DNA of 64,000 bases, taken from positions 434,001 through 498,000 of the forward strand of contig NZ_CP018097.1 of NCBI RefSeq assembly GCF_001886695.1, in the 5' to 3' direction. This DNA comes from Aurantiacibacter gangjinensis. GTDB lineage: Bacteria; Pseudomonadota; Alphaproteobacteria; Sphingomonadales; Sphingomonadaceae. Position 1 is the stretch's first letter. Every line of letters begins with the position of its first letter. This document shows positions 3,276 through 37,900 of the stretch, in pieces. The notes under the pieces were generated by a model. The model saw only the letters and a program-made list of their open reading frames with translations. It searched no databases and was not told the origin of the DNA. A program made the position numbers and the translations under genes.

Positions 3276-3392
3276 TTTACCCGTGCTTCCCGAATTGCAG
3301 CGTCAGCACGCGCTTTGCCACAGGCTCTGCTGGCAGAAAACCCCTAGCGGCCCAGCGCGCCAAGCTTTGCATGTGCGCGCCGTGCGCCTATC

Positions 3393-6158
3393 TTGGCCGA
3401 TGTGAGCCTGCCCACCATCCCCCGCCAGCGCGCCATCATCTCGCGGCGCAAGGTCGCGTCCGCCATCGATGCAGTCGTGGCCGAGAAAGGCGCGACATCG
3501 GCCCGGCAGGAGATCGTGGAGATCCTGCGCGGTGCGCTGGATGCGGGCCGCGCGGAGCTGACTGCCCGTCTGGAAGAGAAGCCGGGAGCCGGGCATGCGA
3601 ACGCGCATGGCTACGCCTTCCTGATCGACCAGCTGATCCGCATCATTCACGACCACGTGGTCGAGGACATCTATCCCGCCGCGAACCGGACCTCCGGCGA
3701 GCGGCTCGCTTTGCTGGCGGTGGGTGGTTACGGGCGCGGCGAAATGTCGCCGCACAGCGATGTCGATATCGCTTTCGTCACGCCCGACAAGCCAACCAGC
3801 TGGTGCGAACAGGTGATCGAGGCGATCCTCTATTACCTATGGGACCTGGGCTTCACAGTCGGCCATTCCACACGCTCGCTCGCCGAAGTCACGCGGATGG
3901 CCACGGCCGACCTGACCGTGCGCACCGCACTGCTGGAGGCGCGCTTCCTGTGGGGCGACCGGGATATTTACGACGAAGCGAGCGCGCGATTCTGGGCCGA
4001 TGTCGTGCCGGGCACGCAAAGCCAATTCGTCGCCGAGAAGCTGGAAGAGCGCGATGCCCGCCACAAGCGCATGGGCGGCAGCCGCTATGTCGTCGAACCC
4101 AATGTGAAAGACGGCAAGGGAGGGTTACGCGACCTCCAGACCCTCTACTGGATCGGCAAATATCTGCACCGCGTGCGCAGCGCGCGCGAGCTTATCGAGA
4201 AAGGCCTTTTCACCCAGAAGGAATATCGCAGCTTCCGCCGTGCCGAACGCTTCCTGCTCGCCGTGCGCGCGCATCTTCACACGATTGCCGGTCGCGGCGA
4301 GGACAGGTTGACTTTCGACCTCCAGCGCGAAGTGGCTGCGCGGATGAATTATGCCGACCGCCCGGGCAAAAGCGCAGTCGAGCGATTCATGCAGTTCTAT
4401 TTTCTGCAGGCCAAGCATGTCGGGCAACTTAGCAGCATGTTCCTCTCACATCTGGAAGAAGAAACAGCGGAGCGCAGCCGCATCGGCGAGTTCATCGCAA
4501 ACCTCAAACCGACGCGCGAGGTGGATGGCTATCCGCTAGTAAACGGCGCGCTCGGCGCTCCGTCCGACGACTGGTTCCAGCAGGACCCCGCTCGCCTGCT
4601 GGAAATCTATGCCATTGCCGAGCGCGAAGGGCTGGAAGTGCATCCCTCCGCCAGCCGCATCATCCGCCGCGATGCCGGGCTGATCGATGCAAAACTGCGC
4701 AAGAACACCCTCGCTAACGACCTGTTTCTCTCCGTCCTCGCCGGTCGAAATGATCCCGAAACGGTGCTGCGCTGGATGAACGAGACCGGCGTATTCGGTC
4801 GCTTCGTACCCGATTTCGGCAAAGTCAACGCGCAGATGCAGTTCGACATGTATCACCACTACACCGTCGACGAGCACACCATCCGCGCGATAGGCCTGCT
4901 GAGCCAGATCGAACGCGGCGAGCTGGCCGACGATCATCCGCTGTCTACGGGCATGCTGCCGCTCATCAAGAACCGCCGCGTGCTGTACGCTTCGGTATTG
5001 CTGCATGATATCGCCAAGGGGCGCGGCGGCGATCATTCGGTGCTGGGCGCGGATGTCGCGAGACGCCTCTGCCCGAGACTCGGCTTGGATGCCCGCGAGA
5101 CTGAACTTGTCGCCTGGCTGGTGCGCTATCACCTGCTGATGAGCGCCACCGCTTTCAAGCGCGATCTGTCCGATCCCAAGACGATCGTCGATTTCGTGAG
5201 CGAAGTGCAGAGCCTCGAACGGCTGCGACTGCTGACGGTGCTGACCGTCGTAGACATCCGCGCCGTCGGCCCCGGCATCTGGAACAGCTGGAAGCGCCAG
5301 CTTATTAGTGACCTCTATGAGGCGGCCGTGGAGCGGCTACGCCTCGGTCACAAAGCGCGTGGCCGCGAGGAGCGGGTCGCGGCAAAGAAGGCGCAGGTTG
5401 CGGACATGCTTGGCGACAAAGGCAGCCTGGTGGAAGAGCTCGCAGACGCCTTTGACGATGCCTACTGGATTGCAGAGCCTGAGGACGTGATCGCCATCAA
5501 CCTGCCGCATTATGCCGCCGCCCAAGACATGGATCACTCGCTCTCGATCCACACCGAACCTTATGAGGAATTGGGTGCAACGCTCGTCACCGTCATCGCG
5601 GACGACCATCCCGGCCTGTTCTACCGTATAGCAGGGGCCATCAGCCTTGCAGGCGCGAACATCATCGATGCGCGCATCCACACGAATAGAGCAGGCAAGG
5701 GTGTCGACAATTTCCTGGTGCAGGATCCGATGTGCCAGCCCTTCAGTGAAGGGCAGCAGCTCAGCCGATTGCGCAAGAGCATCGAGGATGCGCTGCTCGG
5801 CAAGATCGACATGGTGCCCAGCCTCGCCAAGCGTCCGCTGAAACAGACCCGCGCAGAAAATTTCAGCATTGCGCCGCTAATCGTGTTCGATAACGATGCC
5901 TCCAACCGTTTCACGGTGATCGAAGTCAATGCGACGGACCGCCCCGCCCTGCTCAACCGCCTGACGCGGGCGATGTTCGAGCAAAGCCTCATCATCAATT
6001 CCGCCCATATCACGCATTATGGCGAGCGCGCGGTGGATACGTTTTACGTCACCGACTTGTTGGGCGACAAGATCGTGCGGCCCGAGAAGCTGGCGCGGAT
6101 CGAACAGGCACTGCTGGATGCCGTGGCGGCGGGCGAACCTGCCGCCAAGGCCGCCTGA
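3393..6158 (+). CDS. glnD: [Protein-PII] uridylyltransferase / uridylyl-removing enzyme
   Basis: Bifunctional nitrogen sensor that adds UMP to PII proteins under nitrogen limitation and removes it when glutamine is high. The 921 residues show the full family order: nucleotidyltransferase domain with GGYGRGEMSPHSDVDIAF at about 111-128, an HD hydrolase domain (LLHDIAKGRGGDHS) near residue 538, and two ACT domains starting near residues 726 and 839. The start taken here is a TTG at 3393; an in-frame GTG lies at 3402. There is no clear Shine-Dalgarno sequence, so the start is uncertain by a few codons. Functionally linked to gltBD at 52-59 kb. Confidence 0.95.
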   Translation: MADVSLPTIPRQRAIISRRKVASAIDAVVAEKGATSARQEIVEILRGALDAGRAELTARLEEKPGAGHANAHGYAFLIDQLIRIIHDHVVEDIYPAANRTSGERLALLAVGGYGRGEMSPHSDVDIAFVTPDKPTSWCEQVIEAILYYLWDLGFTVGHSTRSLAEVTRMATADLTVRTALLEARFLWGDRDIYDEASARFWADVVPGTQSQFVAEKLEERDARHKRMGGSRYVVEPNVKDGKGGLRDLQTLYWIGKYLHRVRSARELIEKGLFTQKEYRSFRRAERFLLAVRAHLHTIAGRGEDRLTFDLQREVAARMNYADRPGKSAVERFMQFYFLQAKHVGQLSSMFLSHLEEETAERSRIGEFIANLKPTREVDGYPLVNGALGAPSDDWFQQDPARLLEIYAIAEREGLEVHPSASRIIRRDAGLIDAKLRKNTLANDLFLSVLAGRNDPETVLRWMNETGVFGRFVPDFGKVNAQMQFDMYHHYTVDEHTIRAIGLLSQIERGELADDHPLSTGMLPLIKNRRVLYASVLLHDIAKGRGGDHSVLGADVARRLCPRLGLDARETELVAWLVRYHLLMSATAFKRDLSDPKTIVDFVSEVQSLERLRLLTVLTVVDIRAVGPGIWNSWKRQLISDLYEAAVERLRLGHKARGREERVAAKKAQVADMLGDKGSLVEELADAFDDAYWIAEPEDVIAINLPHYAAAQDMDHSLSIHTEPYEELGATLVTVIADDHPGLFYRIAGAISLAGANIIDARIHTNRAGKGVDNFLVQDPMCQPFSEGQQLSRLRKSIEDALLGKIDMVPSLAKRPLKQTRAENFSIAPLIVFDNDASNRFTVIEVNATDRPALLNRLTRAMFEQSLIINSAHITHYGERAVDTFYVTDLLGDKIVRPEKLARIEQALLDAVAAGEPAAKAA

Positions 6159-10636: not shown

Positions 10637-11602
10637 ATGCAGGGGATAGAGCCTTTTTGCGCCATACGGCGCGTATTTACCTTCGTTTTCGCCATGTGCG
10701 CGGCGGCTATGCTGGCCATGCCGGTGGCCGCGCAGGATCACGGTCCCGGCGATGGGACGCAATGGAAGCTCGACCCATTCGCGCGCGTCGAACTCGGCAT
10801 TGTCAGCGCCGAGAGCAGCGACCGCGAGGAGGAGCTAATCGTCAATGGCGATGGCGGCTTCCTGCGCGCGCAGGCCGGTGTCGAATTCGGCAATCACGAT
10901 ACGCAAATCCGCTTCGAGGCCGACCGTATCTTCGTTGAGCGTTTCGGCTCCGCTACCGGCCGCGACAGTTTCGACCGCGACCGCCTCACTGTCTCGCTCG
11001 ACCAAAAGCTTGGCGAGGATTTCGAGGTCCAGCTGCGTGCCCGCGCCTATGACGACCTCGTCACCATCGAGAGCGCCGATACGGATGAGCGGCAGGCGGC
11101 CCTTCGGCTCGAATATGAGCCGGTTCTCGATCACCGCGCCCGCGTGCAGGTGACCTGGCGGGACCGCGAATATGACGATGGCCAGGGGCCGGACGGATCA
11201 TCTTCGCAAGGCGACGGATGGCGCGTTGATGGCGAATACCGCCACCGCATTGGCCGCTACCACTATGTCAATTTCGACCTGCGCGCCGAGGAAATCAACT
11301 CCGACAACCCGCTGCGCAGCTATACTCGCGAGTCCGCTTCCGTCTCCTACACCCGCCCCATCACGCGGGACCTGCGCGTGCGGCCTGCGCTGGAAGTGCG
11401 CCATACGCGTTTCGAGGGACGAATCACGCCATCGGGCGATCCGCGCGAGGATACGCAGATCGTGCCCGAAGTGGAGCTACTCTATTGGCCCGGCGATTGG
11501 CGTATCGAGGCCGAGGCCAAATACATCTTCAGCGCTAGCAACGATCCGGTCCGCGACCGGCAGGGCTATCGCCTCAGCCTGACAGTCGGATATGTTTTCT
11601 GA
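10637..11602 (+). CDS. Predicted outer-membrane beta-barrel protein, first gene of 7TM/ATP-grasp operon
   Basis: A 321-residue secreted protein. After a hydrophobic signal segment ending in MPVAAQ (about residue 33), the mature part is rich in alternating polar/hydrophobic strands with many Arg/Asp/Glu (e.g. VQVTWRDREYDD, YHYVNFDLRAEEINSD) and ends in a C-terminal phenylalanine (LSLTVGYVF), the classical BAM recognition signature. No porin family could be named. It overlaps the next gene (7TM protein) by 11 bp, so they are probably co-translated. The role of an outer-membrane partner for a 7TM/ATP-grasp pair is an open question. Confidence 0.75.
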   Translation: MQGIEPFCAIRRVFTFVFAMCAAAMLAMPVAAQDHGPGDGTQWKLDPFARVELGIVSAESSDREEELIVNGDGGFLRAQAGVEFGNHDTQIRFEADRIFVERFGSATGRDSFDRDRLTVSLDQKLGEDFEVQLRARAYDDLVTIESADTDERQAALRLEYEPVLDHRARVQVTWRDREYDDGQGPDGSSSQGDGWRVDGEYRHRIGRYHYVNFDLRAEEINSDNPLRSYTRESASVSYTRPITRDLRVRPALEVRHTRFEGRITPSGDPREDTQIVPEVELLYWPGDWRIEAEAKYIFSASNDPVRDRQGYRLSLTVGYVF

Positions 11603-13061
11603 CCGGCTAGCATTCCTTAAAGAGGCGATCGCGCGCTCCACGCCGCAGATCAAACGGCCTGCCCTTATCGGCACGGCCGTTTTGTGCTCTCTCGGTGCGC
11701 TGGTGGCTGCCGGCCTCGTCAACACGACCAATCCGCTTTCGATGCCCTCGCAGCTGGGCGGGATCGCGGTGTCGCAGGCGGTATGGGGGCTTCGCCCGTC
11801 AAACCTCCTGATGGTGCTGCCCATCGGCAGCTTCCTGGTGGTTCTGGCGCGCAGCTTTATCGGCATGCGTGCCTTTGGCCTGTTTACCCCCATGCTGATC
11901 GCACTGGCTTTCCTGCAGATCGGCCCGATCTACGGCCCGCTGACGATGATCGCTGCCGTTACCGTTGGCATGATCGTGGCGCCCAGCCTGCTGAAGCTGC
12001 GCATGACCCGTGTGGGCTTTCTCGGCGTGCTGATTTCGCTCGTGGTGTTCGTGCTCGCGCTGCTCCAGATGGTGCTCGATACGCAGTTGCAGGTCGATGC
12101 CATGCCGGTGGTGGTGACCGCGCTGATTGTCGAGCGCTGGTGGCGCCAGTGGGAAAAGGACGGCTATTTCGATGCCGCCCGCATTGCCGCCAATACGATG
12201 GTGCTGGCGCTGGCAATCCAGTTCGTGATGGTCAGCCACTTTGCGCTGATGCTGATCGAGGTTTCGCCGCTTCTGCTGCCTGGCTTCTGCGCCATCGCGA
12301 TCGCTATCCTGGGACGGTATCGTGGATTGCGCCTAACAGAAATTCCGCGCTTCATGCCGATCTGGTACGAAGGCTGGAAGCAAAAGATGCGTGTGGGCGA
12401 GACTGCCCCCGAGGCGGTCGACGAAGTGCTGAATGCCCGCGCCGCGATCGACCTGAACGCTGCTGAAGATGCGGCGATGGAAGCTGCTGCCGCTTTGGCC
12501 GATGATGGCAAGGCCGCCGAATTGGCGACGGGCCTTCCGCAGCCGGAAATCGCCATCGAAGATATGCCCGGCGAGCCCGCGGCATTGCCTGTGGACGCTG
12601 GAACGCCGCAGGATATCGAGCCGGCGATCGCTCGCGTGTCCGAACCCGAAACTGCCCGAGCCGCCACCACGGACTCCGCCACGCCCTCGCTGCGCCCCGT
12701 CGATTGGGACCGTGTGCGCGCCGAACTGAACCTGCCCCCTGAAAGACCAAGCCATGCTGAATCCCTTGAACCTGCTGCGGCGACCGAAGACGAGTCCCTT
12801 TCCGCGTTCTTCACACGACGGCGTATCGCGGATCGCCTCATTGAACCAGGGCTCCTTGGCTTCCTCGATGCCGGTCGATCAGATCCTGGGGATCAATATG
12901 CGCAACGCGCTGATCGCGAAGTACAATCCGCGCGAGGCGATCGAGCGGGCGCGCGACAAGGTGGCGGCCAAGGTCGCGCTAAACGCGCAGGGGATCGCGA
13001 CGACGGGCACAATCTGCGTTATCTCAGAATATGGGGAGCTGATGCGGTTCGATCCGCATAA
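11592..13061 (+). CDS. 7TM protein related to the inactive-transglutaminase-associated 7TM family
   Basis: The first ~245 residues hold about seven hydrophobic segments and resemble the 7TM part (Pfam 7TM_transglut type) found with ATP-grasp ligases; see MRAFGLFTPMLIALAFLQ. The transglutaminase-like domain that usually precedes it is absent. After residue ~250 the protein is an Ala/Glu-rich cytoplasmic tail. As sequenced, the frame runs 308 bp into the ATP-grasp gene. One extra C in the C5 tract at 12735-12739 would instead stop it at LNLPP, 11 bp before the next ATG, giving 383 residues. So the last ~105 residues may be a sequencing or mutation artefact. The family role is unproven. Confidence 0.72.
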   Translation: MFSDRLAFLKEAIARSTPQIKRPALIGTAVLCSLGALVAAGLVNTTNPLSMPSQLGGIAVSQAVWGLRPSNLLMVLPIGSFLVVLARSFIGMRAFGLFTPMLIALAFLQIGPIYGPLTMIAAVTVGMIVAPSLLKLRMTRVGFLGVLISLVVFVLALLQMVLDTQLQVDAMPVVVTALIVERWWRQWEKDGYFDAARIAANTMVLALAIQFVMVSHFALMLIEVSPLLLPGFCAIAIAILGRYRGLRLTEIPRFMPIWYEGWKQKMRVGETAPEAVDEVLNARAAIDLNAAEDAAMEAAAALADDGKAAELATGLPQPEIAIEDMPGEPAALPVDAGTPQDIEPAIARVSEPETARAATTDSATPSLRPVDWDRVRAELNLPPERPSHAESLEPAAATEDESLSAFFTRRRIADRLIEPGLLGFLDAGRSDPGDQYAQRADREVQSARGDRAGARQGGGQGRAKRAGDRDDGHNLRYLRIWGADAVRSA

Positions 13062-13734
13062 GGTCCTGCCCGATCAGTGGGCGATCAAGCCCGCGCGCGG
13101 ATCGCAGGGCGACGGTATCCTGCTCTCGGTCGGCAAGAAGGATGGACACTGGCTGAAAGGCTCGGGCGCGCCGCTCACCACCGACTATGTGATGAACCAC
13201 ATCCGCCGCATCGTGGATGGCCAGTTCTCGGGCGACAGCGCAGCTGAAGATGCCGCGCTGATCGAGCCGCTGATCCAGGCAGACCCGCGCTTTTCCAGCA
13301 TCGCCGATGGCGGCCTGCCGGATTTGCGGATGATCTGCCTCGGCACCGAACCGCTGATGGCGATGGCGCGCTTTCCCACCGACGAATCCGATGGGAAGGC
13401 GAACCTGCACCAGGGCGGGATCGGTGCCGGCATCAGGCTCGATACCGGCGTGATCCATCGCGCCATGCAGGGCAAGAAGGTGATGACCCACCATCCCGAC
13501 ACGGGCCGCCCCATCGTCGGCTACCAGATCCCGGGCTGGGATGTCTGTCTCGAACTGGCATCCAAATGCGGCAAGGCCATCGGGCTCGGATATTGCGGGG
13601 TCGATATCGTTCTCGACAGGAACGATGGGCCGCTGGTGATCGAAGTGAATGCCCATCCGGGCCTCGAGATCCAGAATACCAATCTGCACGGCCTCAAGGG
13701 CCTGATGGAATTGTGCGGTGAAAAACTCGGTTGA
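12754..13734 (+). CDS. Sugar-transfer/RimK-associated ATP-grasp (alpha-L-glutamate ligase-like) protein
   Basis: A 326-residue ATP-grasp enzyme expected to join a carboxylate to an amine or to act in a sugar-linked pathway. ATP-grasp features: QWAIKPARGSQGDGILL (P-loop-like lysine strand), ALIEPLI, DLRMICLGTEPLMAMAR, and the metal site VDIVLDRNDGPLVIEVNAHP with the conserved D/E and N. GLEIQNTN near the end is typical of the alpha-L-glutamate ligase-like group that neighbours 7TM_transglut proteins. It is the last gene of a three-gene operon with the beta-barrel and 7TM genes. The substrate is unknown. Confidence 0.85.
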   Translation: MLNPLNLLRRPKTSPFPRSSHDGVSRIASLNQGSLASSMPVDQILGINMRNALIAKYNPREAIERARDKVAAKVALNAQGIATTGTICVISEYGELMRFDPHKVLPDQWAIKPARGSQGDGILLSVGKKDGHWLKGSGAPLTTDYVMNHIRRIVDGQFSGDSAAEDAALIEPLIQADPRFSSIADGGLPDLRMICLGTEPLMAMARFPTDESDGKANLHQGGIGAGIRLDTGVIHRAMQGKKVMTHHPDTGRPIVGYQIPGWDVCLELASKCGKAIGLGYCGVDIVLDRNDGPLVIEVNAHPGLEIQNTNLHGLKGLMELCGEKLG

Positions 13735-15031: not shown

Positions 15032-16754
15032 ATGGCGGTCCACCGTGCCCTGTTCCTGCTGGCTGCGCTTCTGTGCGCGCTAGGCCTTGTCGCTCCGGCC
15101 ACAGTCGGGGCGCAAGAGCGTGCGGGCTCTACCTGCCATGCCTATTCCGATACTGCTTTGCCTTTCGAGGCCGCACTGCAGCAGCTGGAATGGTCTTGCG
15201 GAGACCGTGACTGGCAGGATGGCCGCGCCCACACCTATCTGCGGTTCGACACCAATGGTCACGGTGGCGCCGAGCTCGAATTGACCAGCAGGCTCACGGT
15301 CTTTCGCGGTTTGCTGATCGGGACCGTGGATCGGGACCGTGGATCGGGACGGGTCGATTTCGACGACGGCCTTCCGCCCGGACGATGCCGTCGCCGTGCC
15401 CGCGGGTCCGGCCTTCTCCGTTCCGGTGCCGAACCTGCAAATCGACACGGCAGCGGTGCTAGTGCGCATCGACAAACCCCATTCCGTGACCGTGGCTTCG
15501 GAAGCCCGGCTCACGCAAAATGCCGCTTTCGAGGATGGCGCGCTCGCCTCGACCATCTTCCTCGCAATGGTCGTGGGCATGCTGGCCATGCCGCTCTTGT
15601 TCGACACGATGTTCTTCATTGTCCTGCGCGAGAAGTTCGTGCTGCTTCATGCCGGCATGACGATAGCCATGGCGACCTATGTGATGACAGCGGGCGGGGT
15701 CATCTCGGCCTTCATCGCCCTTCCGATCGATGTGCTTGCGCGTATCCCTGCGCTTGTCTGGGCCATCGGCGTCGGTTTCGGCGCTTTGTTCATCGCAGGC
15801 TTTGTCGAAAAGGGAGTTTACAAAGATGGCGAGCGGAAACTGCTGAGGCTGCTGGCGGCGTGGACGATGATCGTACCCGGCTTCGCCGCGCTCCAGCTGG
15901 AGGCCACGCAAAGCTTCGACAACCAGCTCTACTTCTACGCTTTCATGCCGATCATTCCGGCCCTGGTCGCCATGATTGCGCTTGCCGTGTGGCGCGGCAG
16001 TCGCGGCGCGCGTTTTCTCGCAGTAGCCTGGACACCTGTGGTGCTCGCATCGATCGACCGCTTGCTCAAGGGCATGGGCGTCTATGCGGCATCCGATTCC
16101 ATAGACCTATGGCTTTTCTTCGCCCTCGCATTCGAAGTGCTGGTGGTGGCCCTGGCCATCGCCGACCGGTTCCTTGCGCTGCGCCGCGAGAGGGACGTCG
16201 CACTGAGCGAGGCGCGCACACTGGAAGAACTCTCGGAGCGCGATGCGCTGACCGGACTTCTCAACCGCCGCGTCATCGAAGAGCGTTTCGAATTCCTGCG
16301 AGCCGAGGGCTTCACCACGCTCGCTTTGATCGACCTCGATCATTTCAAGGTGGTCAATGACGAGCATGGCCATCTGGCAGGCGACGCCGTGCTGAAATGC
16401 GTCGCGGCAGCGCTGCGCGGGGATGACGACAACATGCTCGCCTTCCGCATTGGCGGCGAGGAATTTGCCCTGTTGCTGCGCGGCGAGAACGGGCTGGAGC
16501 GCGCCGAGCAGCGGCGCATCGCCATCACGCCCAAGATCGCGGAAGTCCGGCCTGTTCCCGACATGATCACAGCTAGCATGGGGGTTGTCGAAGCGCCTGC
16601 GGATACGCTGAGCGACGCAAGCTTCGAAGCGCTCTACAGCCGCGCAGACAGGCTGCTTTATCAGGCCAAGGCATCGGGCCGCGACCGGACCATGGCCGAG
16701 CGGCTCAAAGTTTTCCGCCCGCGCCGTATGCAGGAACCGCGCAGGGCAGCCTAG
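15032..16754 (+). pseudogene. 7TM sensor diguanylate cyclase (GGDEF), frameshifted by a 13-bp tandem duplication
   Basis: The first part (from ATG 15032) encodes a signal peptide (ending ATVGAQ) and an extracytoplasmic domain; the second part, in the next frame, encodes about seven membrane helices and a GGDEF domain. The frame breaks at 15316-15350, where the unit GATCGGGACCGTG is present twice plus nine bases. Removing one unit gives an uninterrupted 569-residue protein (ex-LIGTVDRDGSISTT). The cyclase part has IDLDHFKVVNDEHGH and an active-site RIGGEEFA; the usual RxxD inhibitory site nine residues upstream is absent (DDNM instead). A c-di-GMP sensor that is off now but could revert by slippage or recombination. 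Confidence 0.85.
15316..15350 (+). repeat. 13-bp tandem duplication causing a frameshift
   Basis: Two perfect copies of GATCGGGACCGTG (15316-15328 and 15329-15341) followed by a third partial copy of nine bases (15342-15350). The partial copy belongs to the unduplicated sequence, since it leads directly into GGGTCGATTTCG. The 13-bp unit shifts the reading frame by one base. Confidence 0.95.
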
Positions 16755-35997: not shown

Positions 35998-37791
35998 TCA
36001 ATTGTCGCGAATGGCCTTGAGGAAAGCGTCGCCATAAGCGGCCAGCTTCTTCTCGCCGATACCGGGGATCTGGCTCATTTCAGAAAGATTGGCTGGCCGC
36101 CCCGCTGCCATCGCGCGCAAGGCCGCGTCGTGGAACACCACGTAAGGCGGCACGCCTGCATCCGCAGCCAGGTCGCGACGCAACGCCCGCAGTGCATCGA
36201 ACAGCGGATCGCCCACCGGATTGGGCGTGCTGTCACCGCGCCGTCTGCGCCCGCGCCCGCGCTCCGGCGGTTTCGCGATGACGACGTCCGTATTTCCGGC
36301 AAGTATCTCGCGCACATCGCCCGACAGACAGAGGCCGCCATGCTCTGTCTGCGTCAGGTCGCCGCGCACTTGCAACGCCCTCGCCACCGGCTGCAACAGC
36401 CGTGCATCCTCGCCATCGACGATGCCATAGACCGACAGCTTGTCATGCCCGCGCTGGGTCACGCGCTCATCGGCAGAACCGGTCAGCACTTTCTGGATAT
36501 GTCCGAAGCCGTAACTCTGCCCGGTGCGATAGACGGCGGAGAGGAATTTGCGCGCCAGCTCGGTTACGTCGATCACGCTTGGGGGATCGAGGCAATTGTC
36601 GCAATTGCCGCAGGTTTCAGGAGGATTCTCGCCAAAATGGCGCAGCAGCACAGCGCGGCGGCAGCCCGGGGTTTCCACCAGTCCCGCCAGCGCGTCCAGC
36701 CGCTGGCGTTCGCCTTGCTGGCGCGCACTGCCGACTTCGCCCAATCGCATGCGCGCCTGCGCAAAATCGCCCGCGCTCCAGAGCATGACCGCCTCTGCCG
36801 GATCGCCATCGCGGCCCGCGCGGCCTGTTTCCTGATAATAGGCCTCGATACTCTTGGGCACGCCAGCATGGGCGACGAAGCGCACATCGGGCTTGTCGAT
36901 CCCCATGCCGAAAGCGATGGTGGCGACGATCACCATGTCCTCGCTGGCGACGAAGGCGGACTGGTTTTTTGCGCGCACATCTGCCGGAAGACCGGCGTGA
37001 TACGGCAGCACGGGCCTGCCGGTCAGCTCGGCCAATTGCTCGGCCAATTGCTCCACCTTCCGCCGCGTGGGCGCGTAGACGATGCCCGGACCCGGCGTTT
37101 CCGCGCATAGCCGCGCAAGCTGGCGGGGCAGCGCCTCGCGCGGATTGATGCGGTAGCGGATATTAGGTCTGTCGAAGCCCGCGACCACCAGCCCTTCTTC
37201 CGGAATGCCGAGCTGGGCGAGGATGTCGGCGCGTGTATGTTCGTCCGCCGTCGCCGTCAGCGCGAGGCGCGGCACGTCGGGGAAAGCGTCCATCAGCGGG
37301 CGCAGCTGACGATAATCCGGGCGGAAATCGTGTCCCCATTCGGAAACGCAATGCGCCTCGTCCACGGCGAAGAGAGACAGCTTTGCGCTGGAGAGCAAAT
37401 CGCGAAAGCCCTGCTGGCTTGCACGCTCGGGCGCGACATAAAGCAAGTCCAGCTCGCTTGCGCGAAATGCGTCCAGCGTTTCGCGCCAGTCCTCGTCCAC
37501 GCTGGTGAGCGTGGCGGCGCTGATGCCATTGGCGCGCGCGCTGCGCAGCTGGTCGTGCATCAGTGCAATCAGCGGAGAGATGACGACGCATGTGCCTTCC
37601 AGCAGCGTGGCGGGCAGCTGGTAGGTGAGCGACTTGCCCGCGCCTGTCGGCATGACCGCGAGAGTGCTCTGGCCCGCCAGCACGCGCGCGATCACGTCGG
37701 CTTGACGCCCGCGAAAATCGGCAAAGCCATAAATGCGGCGTAGCGCGTCTCGCGCCGCCTCCATATCCACTGCCGGAGCCATGGCCTGCAT
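35998..37791 (-). CDS. recQ: ATP-dependent DNA helicase RecQ
   Basis: A 597-residue 3'-5' helicase of recombination and fork repair. Motif I MPTGAGKSLTYQLPA, motif II DEAHCVSEWGHDFRPDY, motif VI-like YQETGRAGRDGDPAEAVM, RecQ-C-terminal zinc cysteines in ETCGNCDNC, a winged helix and a C-terminal HRDC domain (ALRRDLAADAGVPPYVVF). Start chosen at ATG 37791 (MQAMAPAVDMEAA); ATG 37782 is a close alternative. The open frame upstream to 37845 has no support. Confidence 0.94.
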   Translation of the reverse strand: MQAMAPAVDMEAARDALRRIYGFADFRGRQADVIARVLAGQSTLAVMPTGAGKSLTYQLPATLLEGTCVVISPLIALMHDQLRSARANGISAATLTSVDEDWRETLDAFRASELDLLYVAPERASQQGFRDLLSSAKLSLFAVDEAHCVSEWGHDFRPDYRQLRPLMDAFPDVPRLALTATADEHTRADILAQLGIPEEGLVVAGFDRPNIRYRINPREALPRQLARLCAETPGPGIVYAPTRRKVEQLAEQLAELTGRPVLPYHAGLPADVRAKNQSAFVASEDMVIVATIAFGMGIDKPDVRFVAHAGVPKSIEAYYQETGRAGRDGDPAEAVMLWSAGDFAQARMRLGEVGSARQQGERQRLDALAGLVETPGCRRAVLLRHFGENPPETCGNCDNCLDPPSVIDVTELARKFLSAVYRTGQSYGFGHIQKVLTGSADERVTQRGHDKLSVYGIVDGEDARLLQPVARALQVRGDLTQTEHGGLCLSGDVREILAGNTDVVIAKPPERGRGRRRRGDSTPNPVGDPLFDALRALRRDLAADAGVPPYVVFHDAALRAMAAGRPANLSEMSQIPGIGEKKLAAYGDAFLKAIRDN

Positions 37792-37900
37792 GTGGCAGGT
37801 CCCGCGCCTGCCGCATACCGCCGACAAGCGCATTTCCACCTGCAAAATGCTCGGCTATGGGATGGCTTGGAAATCTTGGACCGAAGGGAATCGATTACTC

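Follow-up and report, generated by a model that had tools for sequence, protein, structure and literature searches.

The gene of a 7TMR-DISM/GGDEF diguanylate cyclase (15032-16754) of Aurantiacibacter gangjinensis is interrupted by a tandem array of a 13-bp unit, such that, in the assembly, the gene is divided between two reading frames and exceeds the unbroken form, which is the rule in the genus, by 13 bases. Probably, the array goes back to a one-off and recent slipped-strand event, by which 13 bp within the gene were duplicated. All positions refer to the window, i.e., the whole stretch of 64,000 nucleotides that was analysed (GC content 64%), unless another sequence is named; the features of the gene are listed in Table 1.

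Table 1. Features of the interrupted cyclase gene and their positions in the window
Feature	Position	Strand	Remarks
Tandem array, 13-bp unit GATCGGGACCGTG, 2.7 copies	15316-15350	+	derived; 13 bases added, frame change
Upstream frame, 442 aa	15032-16360	+	native to about 15340, out of frame beyond
Downstream frame, 471 aa from GTG	15339-16754	+	remainder of periplasmic domain, 7TM, and GGDEF; free of further stops
7TMR-DISM_7TM (PF07695)	15552-16169	+	Pfam, residues 72-277 of downstream frame, E 1.5e-20
GGDEF (PF00990)	16239-16688	+	Pfam, residues 301-450 of downstream frame, E 7.9e-27
Stretch between the codons of the first and second invariant cysteine (residues 35, 56)	15134-15199	+	upstream of the break

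Structure of the tandem array

The 35 bases of the array consist of two units of GATCGGGACCGTG and a further nine bases, with no mismatch between the copies, and its Tandem Repeats Finder score of 70 is the highest of the 32 rows obtained for the window; the perfect copies thus lie exactly where the earlier note had placed them. Regarded as a perfect self-match at an offset of 13, the array measures 22 bases and exceeds every other perfect tandem match of the window; in a further 420 kb of the same genome (21 stretches), the longest comparable run reaches 21 bases. This self-match exceeds chance: among 60 Markov-resampled windows (memory of three bases), none contains a run of at least 22 at periods of 4-60, and even runs of at least 16 at these periods occur there at a mean of only 0.03 per window. 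Within the 2.72-Mb genome, the 22-base core is found at up to two mismatches at no place besides its own two registers.

The sequence GATCGGGAC recurs at an offset of 13, such that the single unit is bordered on either side by a direct repeat, the arrangement by which tandem duplications of the slippage type are recognized; the new and the old copy are indistinguishable. Direct repeats of at least nine bases are common in the window, being present 48 times at offsets of 10-60 and eight times at offsets of 10-20 (the array site's own counted in each case). Concerning a possible DNA hairpin at the array, the fold of an 85-base strand is not superior to those of its shuffled versions (z -0.20).

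The two reading frames and their domains

The upstream frame opens at the ATG at 15032 with a start that, judged by eye, resembles a signal peptide. Its native part comprises this signal peptide and the beginning of the periplasmic domain, in which two invariant cysteines are situated, and Pfam yields no domain above the cut-off in the upstream 103 residues. The downstream frame, open between a TGA at 15315 and its stop codon at 16752-16754, contains the active-site motif GGEEF at 16452-16466, before which RxxD, the motif of the inhibition site, is not seen. Signal peptide and GGDEF domain are situated in different reading frames, in line with the frame break described in the earlier note; the 7TM part, however, which had been assigned there to the upstream piece, is placed by Pfam together with GGDEF in the downstream frame, such that the 7TM follows the break. 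The length of 1710 bp and 569 residues that had been calculated for the gene after deletion of one unit agrees with 1723 minus 13 as well as with the 569 and 568 aa found in two close relatives.

With the 7TMR-DISM sensor diguanylate cyclases (PF07695 and PF00990), the gene shares the GGEEF motif and the domain order, 7TM being followed by GGDEF in the downstream frame. However, the single continuous frame that belongs to this class, signal peptide and periplasmic domain included, is lacking here, the additional 13 bases splitting it ahead of the 7TM, within the periplasmic domain. In an AlphaFold model of the protein of the intact relative L003 (16 sequences, mean pLDDT 86), several beta strands are predicted before the 7TM, and the array site, as counted from the alignment, maps to a turn between strands 93-100 and 105-111. 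The two cysteines (residues 35 and 56 of L003), which are invariant in 25 complete relatives and situated upstream of the array site, perhaps form a disulphide of the sensor. The genome contains 11 GGDEF matches in total, and the other ten are found in open frames of 395-947 aa.

Comparison with other genomes of the genus

The comparison comprises 40 genomes of the genus, including the present one, by which the species is represented once. At a threshold of E 1e-60, a homologue is present in 26 of the 39 other genomes (27 of 40 with the own one), which together possess 28 such genes; among the genomes of at least 90% completeness, it is present in 23 of 33. Matches below the threshold were left out, namely a further fragment in G009 (E 1.4e-60) and those in G016 and G032 (E 1e-41 to 1e-43). 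At this threshold, 13 of the 40 genomes lack the homologue, among them 10 of the 33 with a completeness of at least 90%; judging from this distribution, the sensor cyclase gene is probably dispensable.

The 28 homologous genes (25 complete, three cut by contig ends) are without exception free of inner stops and broken frames, and 26 of them cover the site of the array. In the 25 complete relatives, the second invariant cysteine is separated by 124-131 codons from a leucine that is likewise invariant and lies close to where the 7TM begins. In the five nearest (L003, L004, L005, L006, L036) this spacing is 124 codons or 372 nt, and in the broken gene it is 385 nt, i.e., longer by exactly 13. A tandem run of at least 13 at periods of 4-60 is not found at the site in any of the 28 genes scanned; the sole run of this kind, with a period of 27, is situated elsewhere in the gene of L005. 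A two-unit length common to all relatives, which the earlier note had named as an observation that would speak against its reading, is therefore not found in the genus. The same two domains are present in the three intact homologues that were scanned for them, and in G013, G011, and G029 the intact homologues adjoin the same neighbour matches as the broken gene does.

Age of the lesion

The 25 complete relatives share 48 invariant columns, and the broken gene, whose two pieces were analysed apart, has retained every one of them; therefore, the lesion is either recent or not biological. Decay beyond the first lesion, i.e., another stop or a lost invariant column, is not found, and as a pseudogene the broken gene would be very young at most.

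In the downstream part, the broken gene exhibits identities of 57.0, 52.7, 54.4, 45.9, 43.7, and 40.2% to L005, L006, L036, L007, L008, and L010, respectively, and L003 exhibits 55.7, 53.5, 56.7, 46.8, 43.3, and 43.0% to the same outgroups. For the upstream part (around 100 columns), the values of the broken gene and L003 are, in the same order, 40.0/44.0, 31.7/38.0, 29.4/34.0, 24.2/22.2, 24.0/27.0, and 27.8/26.8. In each part, the broken gene is further than L003 from four of the six outgroups (downstream by 0.8 to 2.8 points, upstream by 3 to 6.3) and nearer to the other two. These distances could hint at some relaxation of the broken gene; its divergence does not appear to have run strongly ahead, although a slight advance is possible.

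Origin of the duplication and alternative explanations

Slippage between direct repeats is an established mechanism by which one unit is gained or lost. In the ancestral one-unit form, two copies of GATCGGGAC would already have been present at a distance of 13 bases, and one unit would have been added when replication slipped from one of these 9-base repeats to the other. As a consequence, the full-length sensor would not be made, given that a ribosome starting at 15032 would translate about 100 native codons and then continue out of frame to 16360. The sequenced clone would thereby have lost one sensor arm of its c-di-GMP signalling, with ten other GGDEF genes remaining. Loss of one unit by the same kind of slippage might bring about reversion, such that the change would be reversible in principle without being an evolved switch. 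Tandem duplications, by recombination, and simple sequence repeats are counted among the major routes of localised hypermutation in the available part of PMC4235727, and promoter repeats of Mycobacterium tuberculosis are described in that of PMC12817950 as varying within isogenic populations. The event in the cyclase gene appears to be an ordinary one, for which switching is possible but unsupported. Accordingly, of the two alternatives in the earlier note, a switchable or a recently broken sensor, the latter holds for the assembled sequence (no broken gene among the 28, exactly 13 excess bases, all 48 columns kept) and the former is not supported, the repeat having been found in the own genome only.

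The main competing explanation is an error of assembly or finishing, in which case the second unit would be absent from the DNA of the organism. The frame break is indeed a singleton with respect to the 28 genes of the relatives, and the conservation of all 48 invariant columns is what would be expected if the gene were truly intact. Since frame changes that are limited to one genome and confirmed by comparison are expected to represent sequencing errors rather than mutations (PMC3711429, in the part available), this explanation is retained, albeit as a rather unlikely one. Against it stand the 9-base repeat, which offers a ready mutational cause, and the absence of N bases from the window and from the further 420 kb of own sequence. 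Moreover, the array of 35 bases is shorter than a usual read, and assemblers tend to collapse rather than to expand such arrays. Finally, no other frame break judged to be real is found among the frames matched between the window and its relatives, which number 28 for G013 (1-37.6 kb, with none at 10.6-13.8), 29 for G011 (1-31.8 kb), and 10 for G029 (5.8-21.4 kb) and include some antisense shadows, such that the true gene numbers are lower. The cyclase gene is split in comparison to all three genomes and constitutes the only break judged real in the matched parts of 1-37.6 kb; an assembly with many frame errors is not seen in these matched frames.

It is also conceivable, but improbable, that the gene is partly functional, with an internal start (GTG 15339 or a later one) leading to a protein without signal peptide and conserved cysteines, i.e., an unsensed and perhaps constitutive cyclase. 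The downstream frame is open and contains the 7TM, GGDEF, and GGEEF, and among 18 in-frame candidates in 15318-15700, GTG 15339 exhibits the best anti-SD pairing (-4.4 kcal/mol, compared to -2.7 at the native start 15032 and an average of -2.5 over 400 random positions). However, the value of -4.4 falls between the 5th (-6.5) and the 25th (-3.5) percentile of the random positions, so that the pairing is weak or moderate at best. Furthermore, GTG 15339 would be present in the unbroken frame as well, and the lesion would therefore bring no gain; because the upstream frame continues to 16360, there is no nearby stop for reinitiation; and the first TM may insert wrongly if the signal peptide is missing. 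A similar situation is described in the available part of PMC11327459 for the degenerate cyclases of Shigella flexneri: although stops precede GGDEF in dgcE, dgcQ, and dgcN, these genes still give rise to c-di-GMP, and there, too, the lesion is situated upstream of an intact GG[DE]EF and alternative starts exist in the downstream frame. In Shigella, however, the lesions are nonsense mutations and activity was measured, whereas the present lesion is a tandem duplication known from sequence alone. Given the intact catalytic part, a shortened protein could still be made and be under selection.

Phase variation, in which the sensor would be turned on and off within the population as slippage changes the array from one to two (or four) units and back, is a quite improbable explanation. 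The repeat is perfect, changes the frame, and lies within a signalling gene, and the removal of one unit leads to the spacing of the nearest relatives. Reversible sequence duplications have been reported for pneumococcal capsule genes (PMC4243769, in the part available, citing Waite et al. 2001, 2003, with one title referring to a duplication within an open reading frame); like the present case, they concern spontaneous duplications inside a gene that are potentially revertible, but they are described as reversible, whereas the cyclase array is known from a single assembled genome. Furthermore, the array contains only 2.7 copies and occurs in one genome only, and the relatives' genes exhibit no comparable run apart from the one of L005 outside the site. 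Equally, a recurrence of the repeat or of the frame change, as would mark a phase-variable locus, is not found in the homologues (none of 28 broken, with 26 covering the site), and the phase-variation class of PMC3711429, as defined in the part available, needs at least five homologues with a changed frame, compared to one here. An evolved switch is thus unlikely. Still further down ranks a two-state allele, which we consider extremely improbable: with one unit, it would encode a periplasmically sensed cyclase, and with two units, a version that is translated from an internal start, shortened at the N-terminus, and unsensed; within a clone, these modes of c-di-GMP production would be exchanged by slippage.

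A recent slippage duplication in the cyclase gene would illustrate that a single step at a short direct repeat within a coding sequence suffices to inactivate one c-di-GMP sensor among several, and that the sensor may perhaps be regained by way of the repeat. For annotation, the two frames are to be read as one disrupted sensor cyclase and not as two genes. The case has no bearing on any long-standing open question. Among the literature matches listed, no title deals with this gene, and none of the papers searched combines '13-bp duplication' with 'diguanylate cyclase'.

Other frames and repeats

In the comparison with the relatives, a second row with two frames (G013, window 3529-2406) was judged to result from an overlong N-terminal start antisense to the gene at 3384-6125; a frame of G011 matches 3275-2367 in one piece. 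Further two-frame rows in the unfiltered comparison were attributed to antisense shadows of other genes. Two long frames of the same strand, 11592-13061 and 12754-13734, share about 300 bases (12754-13061); a second frameshift was considered at this place and rejected, the overlap being also present in G011 (L043).

Among the perfect tandem matches of the window, the second in length (37026-37053) consists of 2.3 copies of the 12-bp unit GCTCGGCCAATT; its repeat length is a multiple of three, and it is situated inside a long minus-strand frame (35998-37845), which by eye we take to be RecQ-like. Near the start of contig 1 of the same genome, a 21-base repeat with a period of 34 bases is found (L045, 6961-7015).
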